DNA of 64,000 nucleotides from Synergistaceae bacterium (GTDB lineage Bacteria > Synergistota > Synergistia > Synergistales > Aminobacteriaceae). This document shows, in pieces, positions 14,006 to 44,664 of this stretch. The DNA is taken from assembly GCA_017439345.1 (NCBI GenBank), contig JAFSJJ010000019.1, positions 1 to 64,000 of the forward strand, given 5' to 3'. The position numbers were made by a program, and so were the translations under genes. Each line of letters opens with the position of its first letter. Positions within the stretch are counted from its first letter, which is position 1. Under the pieces are notes generated by a model. That model saw only the letters and a program-made list of their open reading frames with translations. It made no database searches and was not told the DNA's origin.

Positions 14006-15247
14006 TTATTTTTTCTCCCCCGCCTGCAAAATCATTATAAACATGACCTGAAGAACTGCGAAAATAGATATAGAGTAATTAAAATACGTCCAGCCGTGCC
14101 CCGAATGCCCTGCCATTACGAATACCCATACAACCGGATAGGACGCAATAAATAAATACGGGAGCGAGTCCTTCCAGCGTGTGTAAGCCTTCCTGTAAAT
14201 TAACACAGCAAGAAAAATTAATACAGTTATTATCATGAAGTCGCGTTTAAATCTTGATGTTATCAGCAGTCTCATAAATACGCGGTAATTCATTGCAAGC
14301 CTGTTATATAAGCTGCCTCCTGAATAGTGCTGTACCTGCCCCTTTCCTGCAAGCGTCAGACCAAAAGCTGAGGAAAGAAATACTTTTGTGAACGTTGTAA
14401 CAGCATAACCTGTCAGCCAGCTCGCAGAATATTTTATAATCGAGTAAATATCATGTTTCAAGTCGTGATTATTATTCCTGAAGATTAAATAACATACGAG
14501 CATGAACCCCACAGAAAGCATCGGAGTTATAAGCATAGAAGTAAAGCCTACAAGAGCACCGACAGCCGCAAAGAGTTCATCAAGATAATAATTATTCCCG
14601 CGCTTTATAAAACGTATTACAAGCAGAGACCCAAGCAGCATAAAGAAAATATCATTAAAGAATAATAACGACAACGCCTCAAGCTGAAAGTTAAAGAAAA
14701 GAAACGCACACATAAACGGAATGATGGCGAAAAAATTCTTGTAGTGATCAAGTATTAATATACACAAAATGAACGATAACGCATAAACCAGCCAGGCACA
14801 CAAGACTCGTATATCCTGAATGGGATACCTGATTAAAAGAGGACGCAGATAAATTCTAAAGCCGTCCCACATATATGAATGACTGAAATGAAGCTTAGGT
14901 GTTATTGTCTCGCTTTCAAAAACTGTCTGATAAAATTTCGTGAGTCCGTCCTTGCCGCTCCCTGACTGGTAAGAATCAATCGCGCTGTAAAAAGGATTGT
15001 CATTTTTTCTGTTAATCGTGATTGCAATGCACGCACCATCAGTGAAATTGTCAAGAAAGCTCCCTGACGCATAAATATCAGGGTAAACGCCCTCTTTATA
15101 TAATTTCTCAGCAGAGATTCTCACGTTCTTATCGAGCAAATTATCAGGAATACAGTAAACAAGAACGAGCAGAAGATAGCCGGTTATTATAATGCCGGCC
15201 GTTATGAGCAAATTTTTTAATACGTGTTCGGATAAATAATTTTTCAT
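14006..15247 (-). CDS. Polytopic membrane protein, possible GT-C-type glycosyltransferase
   Basis: The 413-residue protein has an N-terminal membrane anchor, an extracytoplasmic loop of about 100 residues (DNFTDGACIAIT...YMWDGFRIYLRPLL) and then some eight or nine membrane segments. A late loop reads VMAGHSGHGWTYFNYS. The overall plan, first loop between helices 1 and 2 plus many helices, resembles lipid-phosphate-sugar-dependent GT-C transferases, but no diagnostic motif was recognised. It follows HAD and UbiA-type genes in an apparent operon (18-base gap), so it may use their lipid-linked sugar. Treat the function as unknown. Confidence 0.65.
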   Translation of the reverse strand: MKNYLSEHVLKNLLITAGIIITGYLLLVLVYCIPDNLLDKNVRISAEKLYKEGVYPDIYASGSFLDNFTDGACIAITINRKNDNPFYSAIDSYQSGSGKDGLTKFYQTVFESETITPKLHFSHSYMWDGFRIYLRPLLIRYPIQDIRVLCAWLVYALSFILCILILDHYKNFFAIIPFMCAFLFFNFQLEALSLLFFNDIFFMLLGSLLVIRFIKRGNNYYLDELFAAVGALVGFTSMLITPMLSVGFMLVCYLIFRNNNHDLKHDIYSIIKYSASWLTGYAVTTFTKVFLSSAFGLTLAGKGQVQHYSGGSLYNRLAMNYRVFMRLLITSRFKRDFMIITVLIFLAVLIYRKAYTRWKDSLPYLFIASYPVVWVFVMAGHSGHGWTYFNYSISIFAVLQVMFIMILQAGEKK

Positions 15248-15265: not shown

Positions 15266-15874
15266 TTAGAAATTTTTTACATCAAGGTAATCAATACCTG
15301 CCCCCTGAGCGCATAGTCCGTCTTTATCGTATCTGTCGCCGATGTACAACACCTCGCTTTTATTGAGTCCCAAAAAGTGAATTATATTTATCAAGCCTTG
15401 AGAGTCAGGCTTCATGCAGTGAATAATTTCGTCGCAGCTCCAGAACGCATAATCAGGAGTGAAATTTATCGCGCAGATCTTTTCTTTTACGGGGTTGTCA
15501 GAGTAAATAATTATCTTCGTGCCTGCCTTCTGACAAAATTTTAATTTCTCAAGCAGTTTTCTCCGCCTGAAGAGTATTATGAATCTCAATGGTCTCTTTA
15601 TCATCCAGAGCTTTATAATTTCTTCGGTATTTATATTTATATCTGCGTGTGCCTTGAGTGCTGCCTCTCTTAATTGCAAGTGATAGAAGTTCCGTGACCC
15701 GCTCATGAATCTTTGCTCTTGAAGCCGTCTGTAATTCTTAATGACAAGAAGCTCGCGAAGTCTTAAAGGGTGAACGAGGTAATAAATCACGAGCCAGAGA
15801 GCCATTAAGACTCTAACCGGAGCTTGATAATATAACGTTCCGTCAAAGTCCGTAATAATTGCTTTGTATTTCAT
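15266..15874 (-). CDS. HAD-superfamily phosphatase
   Basis: 202 residues. HAD motif I is DFDGTLYY (near residue 9), motif II is IIYSDNP and motif IV is YIGDRYDKDG. The cap region is alpha-helical and basic (RRLLEKLKF). It starts 8 bases after the UbiA-type gene stops. In lipid-linked pentose synthesis a phosphatase removes the 5-phosphate from decaprenyl-phosphoryl-ribose-5-phosphate; in several bacteria UbiA and HAD domains are adjacent or fused. That role is inferred from the neighbour. Confidence 0.8.
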   Translation of the reverse strand: MKYKAIITDFDGTLYYQAPVRVLMALWLVIYYLVHPLRLRELLVIKNYRRLQEQRFMSGSRNFYHLQLREAALKAHADININTEEIIKLWMIKRPLRFIILFRRRKLLEKLKFCQKAGTKIIIYSDNPVKEKICAINFTPDYAFWSCDEIIHCMKPDSQGLINIIHFLGLNKSEVLYIGDRYDKDGLCAQGAGIDYLDVKNF

Positions 15875-15881
15875 GTATTAT

Positions 15882-16951
15882 TTATCTCAGAGAAATTAAT
15901 TCGGTGTTCGTGAAAAACTTCAATGCAGGAATATGTATTATTAACAGCACTATGAACAGGACGGTCAAGCCGGCGCAGTAAAGCATTAAGCCTTTCTCGT
16001 GATATAACTTTTCGGGTTTCTGGACTGCGGAGTCATTCTCGAACGACAAGTAGAAATAATAACAGAACAGACCGGTCAAAGCAGGCATGAATAATATTAA
16101 TTCGATTCTGTACTTGATAAGAAAAACTCCCGTGAAGAACACAGAACACATTGCGTAAAAGAACGAGCTGATTAACAAAGACTTTTCTGAATAATACTTG
16201 AACGATCTGCGATAGAGTCCTGCAAGTTTCGAGTCATTAATCATTCTGTACTCGGCAAATCTCTTTACAGCCATCAAGAACGCTCCTCCGAACCAGTAGC
16301 CTGCAATGAGACTCACAGGAGGCAGGGTAGACTCAGAGATTATGAACCAGCCCGCTATTAATCTTATTGCGTTATTAATCGACTCAGTCAAGACATCGAG
16401 ATACACAATATCTTTTGTCCTGAATGGCTTAACGTTGTAAAGTATTCCCATCAGCCAGAGCCATATTATGACAGCCAGAAAGTTTATGCTTAACAAAGAA
16501 CTTGCTGCGAAGCCTGCGAGACTCAAAGCTGCCCATAAAGCCCAGACTATCGAGCCTTTGACTCCGCCTGATACAACACTGCGGAATTTTTTTACAGGGT
16601 GATATTTGTCAAATTCTGCGTCAAGATATTCGTTAATAGCATAATTAGCCGAAGCAATGAGACTCACAGCAATGAAGCCGAGTATAATATTAATTGAGTG
16701 TTCTGAATCGAATTTTGATTTCGTGAGGAGAAGAGCAGCTATTGAACCTGGAACTATGAAGAACTGCTTGACCCAATGATCGGGACGTAGTATCTTTATA
16801 TACTTAGTTAATGTCTTATTGTTGTTGCCTTGTTGTTGCCTTGTTGTTGCCTTGTTGTTGCCTTGTTGTTGCCTTGTTGTTGCCTTGTTGTTGCCTTGTT
16901 GTTGCCTTGTTGTTGCCTTGTTGTTGCCTTGTTGTTGCCTTGCATTATCAT
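15882..16951 (-). CDS. UbiA-type decaprenyl-phosphate phosphoribosyltransferase-like gene with a frame-shifting tandem repeat at its 5' end (apparently OFF)
   Basis: The conserved frame runs from about 16820 to the stop at 15882. It includes ILRPDHWVKQFF, the prenyl-diphosphate motif NEYLDAEFD (NxxxDxxxD), FRSVVSGG and LDVLTESINNAIRLIAG, all typical of the UbiA branch containing DPPR synthase. About eight membrane helices follow. The only start codon in the conserved frame, GTG 16667, lies inside the first conserved block and would drop the first helix and the RPDHW motif. A convincing start, ATG 16951 with AGGAG at 16967-16963, lies on the far side of 11 copies of an 11-bp repeat in another frame. 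That frame ends at the TAA 16810-16808; 10 or 13 copies would join ATG to the conserved frame. Annotated here as one phase-variable gene. Confidence 0.75.
16821..16941. repeat. Perfect 11-bp tandem repeat, 11 copies
   Basis: GTTGTTGCCTT on the plus strand (AAGGCAACAAC on the coding strand) is repeated 11 times without a mismatch, 121 bases in all. The unit is not divisible by 3 and has no stop codon in any frame on the coding strand, so each gain or loss of a unit changes the reading frame passing through it. The coding-strand translation cycles through KATTRQQQGNN. Confidence 0.97.
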
Positions 16952-16967
16952 TATTATCAAATCTCCT
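16945..16967 (-). promoter_or_regulatory. Ribosome binding site and start codon leading into the 11-bp repeat
   Basis: AGGAG (16967-16963) is followed after 11 bases by ATG (16951-16949), with a second in-frame ATG at 16945. Translation from here reads MIMQGNN and then the repeat. There is no other start with a ribosome site upstream of the prenyltransferase body. Confidence 0.7.
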
Positions 16968-16984
16968 GTATGAATTTATTGCGT

Positions 16985-17008
16985 GTTACTAATACATTTA
17001 CTAATACA
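16985..17008. repeat. Twin TTACTAATACA element, copy 1
   Basis: GTTACTAATACA followed by TTTACTAATACA, that is, two 12-base direct repeats. It matches the element at 44641-44664 at 23 of 24 positions. It lies between the flhB stop and the start of the UbiA-type gene. Confidence 0.8.
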
Positions 17009-44640: not shown

Positions 44641-44664
44641 GTTACTAATACAATTACTAATACA
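44641..44664. repeat. Twin TTACTAATACA element, copy 2
   Basis: GTTACTAATACA plus ATTACTAATACA, 23 of 24 bases identical to 16985-17008 and in the same orientation. Confidence 0.8.

Follow-up and report, generated by a model that had tools for sequence, protein, structure and literature searches.

The locus described here raises the question of how a membrane prenyltransferase gene can be expressed when a perfect tandem repeat separates it, out of register, from its start site, and whether that repeat acts as a switch. It lies in a 64,000-nucleotide stretch of a Synergistaceae genome (G000; positions 1 to 64,000 of contig JAFSJJ010000019.1, assembly GCA_017439345.1), referred to below as the window, and our analysis leads us to regard it as very probably a real slipped-strand phase-variation locus, for which copy-number switching is predicted.

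On the minus strand, TRF delimited at 16819–16942 a tandem array of the unit AAGGCAACAAC with a period of 11, 11.3 copies, 100% match and no indels, eleven full units of which span 16941–16821. This proposed switch sits between an ATG start candidate (16949–16951, with a second in-frame ATG at 16945–16943) and an intact UbiA-family frame of 312 codons plus stop (15882–16820, minus strand), which is in another register. A Shine-Dalgarno-like AGGAG (16963–16967), inferred from its position, precedes the ATG by 11 nt, a spacing above the ideal. The array is open in all three frames; the frame set by the ATG at 16951 reads through all copies as repeats of KATTRQQQGNN and stops after 47 codons at a TAA (16808–16810), leaving the prenyltransferase gene of the 11-copy assembly out of frame, that is, OFF. 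With 13 copies, the computed translation is a 363-aa fusion to the UbiA frame and, by the same arithmetic, 10 copies give 352 aa. The initial annotation had described this perfect 11-bp by 11 array between AGGAG-N11-ATG and the prenyltransferase frame and had predicted from it that 10 or 13 copies would be ON and 11 OFF, and our recalculation agrees with it on both points. The count of 11 is nominal, because the assembly is a 46-contig draft and the 124-bp array is close to short-read length. A doubled AAGGCAACAAC unit was absent from the rest of the 2.54-Mb genome and from 42 other genomes of the genus.

Other ways of starting the prenyltransferase were considered. Between the upstream stop and GTG 16667, the conserved frame contains no ATG, GTG or TTG, so that this GTG is, as first proposed, the earliest internal start candidate; we rejected it as the normal start, as a protein begun there would lack 51 N-terminal residues, among them the conserved DHWVKQFF stretch. 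Programmed ribosomal frameshifting was likewise rejected, since reading of the array and its flanks revealed neither a slippery heptamer nor a homopolymer run. In homologues from other taxa (Lachnospiraceae, Selenomonadaceae and others), a start codon stands about 10 residues ahead of the DHW motif, whereas the sequences from the genus have none at that place, and none of 80 loci from other taxa carries a comparable array at the gene start. Because the outside homologues have a normal start and the genus sequences have none there, the array region has evidently replaced the original start of the gene.

The identification of the product as a UbiA-type prenyltransferase held up in both Pfam (PF01040, 1.8e-21) and PDB searches (8j8j, 1.1e-15), the latter entry being the mycobacterial decaprenyl-phosphate phosphoribosyltransferase (DPPR synthase). 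Like 8j8j, the window gene belongs to the UbiA family and carries the D-rich and HPxKxFR motifs (NxxxDxExDxxHPxKxFR), NEYLDAEFDKYHPVKKFR aligning to NDVRDVEADREHPTKRFR, and the KR-AE motif is also kept. Unlike it, the window gene scores only 78.6, 75.3 and 74.3 bits against NCBIfam equivalog cut-offs of 474, 234 and 207, and it is followed by a HAD-type hydrolase. Because it lies so far below these cut-offs, we call it only DPPR-synthase-like: its product resembles decaprenyl-phosphate phosphoribosyltransferase, with the substrate a prediction. The HAD-family hydrolase gene (15266–15874, minus strand; Pfam) is next, an order kept in three related genomes (G017, G024 and G033), and beyond it a 413-aa membrane protein without a Pfam match (14006–15247, minus strand, from gene calls and a Pfam search) probably shares the operon. 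In G024 and G033, by our reading, the operon is followed by SbcD-like genes.

Close UbiA homologues occur in five of 37 genomes of the genus, namely G000, G017, G024, G033 and, as a broken remnant, G004. The G017 gene is 79% identical to that of G000, lies at the same place directly after flhB and likewise begins ATGATA, but its array is built of a 10-mer, AAGAACAGCA; its copy count is uncertain because an assembly break splits the array between two contigs, which hold about 11 and 13.7 units. G024 has AAGAAGC x7 (49 bp) and G033, a red deer Synergistales MAG, AAGAGCC x6.3 (44 bp). Thus, an array is kept at this gene in four species with four different units of 11, 10, 7 and 7 bp, none a multiple of three, and what is conserved at the locus is the presence of such an array and not its sequence. 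Rather than the fixed count of 11 with an alternative start that had been put forward as the contrary outcome, the relatives show differing units and copy numbers. In all three species in which gene and start share a contig (G000, G024 and G033) the gene is out of frame, which is compatible with chance (8/27) and also with a mostly silent gene. Two further UbiA sequences deserve mention. The G004 remnant (G004:C28:15787-16327; L013, L019) is joined to an upstream promoter-like sequence and has neither array nor start codon, and G025 has a distant UbiA paralogue with a 10-mer array, ACAGCAAAGC x7.6 (L015 1401–1476), about 78 bp upstream of it; this array seems to fall within, or close to, the end of the gene before.

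These relatives bear on two rival explanations. The true count in G000 could be 10 or 13 and the assembly wrong, the gene being constitutively in frame and the array a variable N-terminal tail selected in frame. The draft status of the genome, an array near short-read length and the frequent breakage of contigs in repeats, in G017 in this very array, are all compatible with such an error, which we nonetheless consider improbable, as an in-frame tail would favour units that are multiples of three and the four species have none, and as the G024 and G033 arrays, short enough for safe assembly, are also out of frame. Still less probable, in our estimate, is a decaying pseudogene severed from its start in the window genome by neutral repeat expansion. 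The gene is indeed missing from most genomes of the genus and broken in G004, but its 312-codon frame is intact, arrays at the same place in four species are not what one neutral accident would produce, and dN/dS is about 0.04 between the G000 and G017 genes and about 0.10 between those of G000 and G024 (dS being saturated or close to it). The low dN/dS therefore indicates that the UbiA protein is under purifying selection and is kept.

We thus return to the switch. At the window locus, the 5' end of a gene carries a perfect short tandem repeat whose unit is not a multiple of three, and only one register would, by frame, express the gene; we judge it highly likely, from the sequence, that it is a translational phase-variation (contingency) switch of the slipped-strand type. 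Slipped-strand mispairing during replication would add or remove 11-bp units and, because 11 is not a multiple of three, a change of a single unit can move the start site into or out of the prenyltransferase frame. Cells with 10 or 13 copies would make a protein of 352 or 363 aa that carries the repeats as an N-terminal tail, whereas with 11 or 12 copies translation would end just after the array, and in the OFF register the downstream hydrolase and membrane protein genes may also drop in expression, by polarity. Depending on the register, a polyprenyl-linked sugar precursor, and with it a surface glycan feature, would be present or absent. A high slippage rate, expression that depends on frame and a role of the product in surface glycans are what we infer from this arrangement.

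Signs of array instability are seen elsewhere in the genome. Thirteen of 72 sampled contig ends fall inside a tandem repeat, compared with 0.1% of random points. The G000 contigs C1, C4, C5, C23, C25, C26, C29, C30, C38 and C41 begin in repeats and C2, C9 and C26 end in them; the end of C2 and the start of C29 look like halves of one module with the unit AGCCACG, as do the starts of C25 and C1 for another with the unit AGACC. Moreover, the arrays of two tandem paralogues at L138, whose genes share 93% identity in their first 300 bases, are exactly two units apart in length. The contig breaks and the L138 difference fit changing or long arrays, and stop short of proving switching in a population.

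The window array has many counterparts. In a sample of 1.04 Mb of the 2.54-Mb G000 genome (about 41%, taken as stretches in which contig ends are over-represented), we identified 20 arrays of 5-, 7-, 8- or 11-mers with at least three copies. Once contig halves are joined and two minimal arrays set aside, these reduce to 16 loci, a minimum for the whole genome. According to Pfam, the genes downstream in G000 encode GT2 and GT1/4 glycosyltransferases, polysaccharide pyruvyl transferase, FkbM and other methyltransferases, sugar-transfer ATP-grasp, acyltransferase 3 and LicD proteins, to which other species add MBOAT, bacterial sugar transferase, GT8, radical SAM, nitroreductase and phosphoribosyltransferase. 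Most of these targets are typical surface-polysaccharide genes, the last three families being less typical. The proposed switch is one of many in the genus, most of them at surface-glycan genes. Repeats that differ between species at one spot, together with similar arrays before many other surface-sugar genes, speak for a switching system that evolved as such rather than for an accident, and the phase-variation reading first proposed for the window locus alone is strengthened by the different arrays in three other species and by the many further arrays in the genome. Loss of mismatch repair as the cause of the arrays was rejected, MutS being present in G000 and in the relatives searched. Hexamer arrays are about as common in the G000 sample, most of them inside long coding frames (for example TCAGAG or GACTCA, at L107 16635–16730, L131 5997–6337, L116 4706–4734 and others), where length could vary in frame; they too are present at several contig ends. 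At L135 (2680–2757, plus strand), an 8-mer array GAACAATC x9.8 is read by a start frame that enters a methyltransferase-like N-terminus and then meets an in-frame TAG, so that this copy apparently has a nonsense codon in addition to its array.

Most of the sampled loci share an arrangement in which the array begins 0–2 bp after TTGACA-N16-18-TAnnnT (often TATAAT), with a Shine-Dalgarno-like AAAGGA immediately before the TTGACA, so that the promoter consensus overlaps the Shine-Dalgarno/start region; a promoter score of at least 10/12 occurs at only about 0.5% of random positions. The start codon lies within the promoter spacer, 7–10 nt after the Shine-Dalgarno sequence in most G000 loci and 12–15 nt after it in several loci of G031 and G033. 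As the TATAAT stands in differing frames relative to the start codon, what is kept appears to be the DNA sequence rather than an encoded peptide. Examples from the G000, G031, G033 and G024 samples (L102–L201) are L138 11791 and 10548 and L164 4699, all on the minus strand. The TTGACA-TATAAT sequence is thus a candidate promoter that overlaps the start codon. The strict pattern AAAGG-N1-5-TTGACA-N16-18-TATAAT was found in 26 of 37 genomes of the genus compared with three of 24 other genomes of the order, and it runs straight into an array at 22 of the 27 genus sites with flanking sequence (16 heptamers and six pentamers) but at none of the three sites outside the genus. Altogether, we collected 39 distinct modules, 30 with heptamers and nine with pentamers, none having a 6- or 9-mer unit.

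The window locus is a simpler form, without the −10 box of this module. No clear promoter could be identified before the G000 gene, where G017 has TGATATAAT, and no TATAAT-like −10 box stands directly before its array as it does in promoter repeats of the hmw type. Close by, a double element TGTATTAGTAA-N-TGTATTAGTAA occupies window positions 16986–17008, with another at 44642–44664 and one at L102 6460–6497; sampled G000 DNA has 21 such sites, several just upstream of likely promoters, while the sampled parts of G024, G031 and G033 have none. It is possibly a binding site or the trace of a mobile element.

This module arrangement is also what might suggest that repeat number acts on transcription or on the mRNA instead of through the reading frame, as in hmw1A of Haemophilus influenzae, whose promoter P2 has a heptamer array overlapping its −10 box, expression falling as repeats are added (PMC8262952). 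For the window locus we find this very improbable: its array lacks a preceding −10 box, and such a mechanism does not require units other than multiples of three, yet 6- and 9-mers are absent and a frame links to the gene in 29 of 34 modules, those cut by contig edges (five of the 39) being left out. Among the 39 modules, 13 have one frame that runs directly into the gene, a fusion like that proposed for the window locus, and in 16 the gene has its own start 30–170 bp past the array, reached by a single leader frame whose stop overlaps or borders that start codon (ATGA, GTGA, TAATG) or lies a few bases into the gene; five (L181, the second L203 site, L211, L212 and L222) could be assigned to neither type, partly owing to the ends of the stretches. 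In the first loci of the coupled type, 12 of 12 leaders reached the start, against 24.5% per locus in a control on 74 intergenic genes, a clear excess even though the nominal 5e-8 is too optimistic, because the loci are not fully independent, two of them being the L138 paralogues, and the span used for the count was set after the first loci had been seen. A leader ORF that ends at the start codon suggests, by its anatomy, translational coupling. Where a start is visible in G000, L115, L116 and one L138 copy are ON and the rest OFF, a share near the one third expected of freely switching loci.

A broader reading, which we put forward tentatively, is not confined to the frame. A genus-wide cassette of AAAGGA-TTGACA-N16-18 (containing the start codon)-TATAAT followed by a 5- or 7-mer array may precede many surface-glycan genes of every genome, copy number setting the frame of the fusion or leader and possibly, because the array lies at the start point of a consensus promoter, the transcript level as well. 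The window locus would be a relative of this cassette without the promoter box.

Our searches of open-licence literature, directed at phase variation in Synergistetes or Synergistaceae and, separately, at repeats combined with translational coupling, yielded nothing on such a system and no description of a coupled leader combined with overlap of promoter, Shine-Dalgarno sequence and start codon. An array right after a promoter that overlaps the start codon, together with coupled leaders, suggests a switch design for which we found no precedent. Genomes with many phase-variable loci have been described in a review as apparently restricted to pathogens, an open question that may reflect database bias (PMC11868660), and a gut/rumen Synergistales genus with many frame-switching arrays permits a direct test of that restriction. 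In practice, automatic annotation is likely to label such genes as truncated or as pseudogenes, and short-read assemblies break at the arrays.

Among known systems, the hmw1A layout is the nearest analogue of the genus module: the promoter heptamers of hmw1A and hmw2A share with it, and not with the window locus, an array at the −10 box. The hmw arrays differ in that they tune the level of expression from the 5' untranslated region, whereas in the genus module the reading frame opened by a start codon in the promoter spacer crosses the array, and one register leads to the gene or to its start codon. The window locus itself is closer to the contingency loci of Haemophilus influenzae and Neisseria, with which it shares a perfect 5' tandem repeat, a surface-structure gene as the probable target, a unit that is not a multiple of three and a copy number that would set the frame, and the genus resembles these bacteria in having many such loci per genome. 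The H. influenzae repeats are mostly tetranucleotides, with some 5-, 7- and 8-mers and few longer units, in a survey that covered units up to 9 only and found those above 7 to be infrequent (PMC2651432). Units are thus mostly of 4 bp there and of 5, 7, 8, 10 and 11 bp here. Moreover, the host here is an uncultured gut Synergistales lineage known from MAGs, in which, unlike Haemophilus and Neisseria, the repeat unit has been replaced wholesale between species at one gene.
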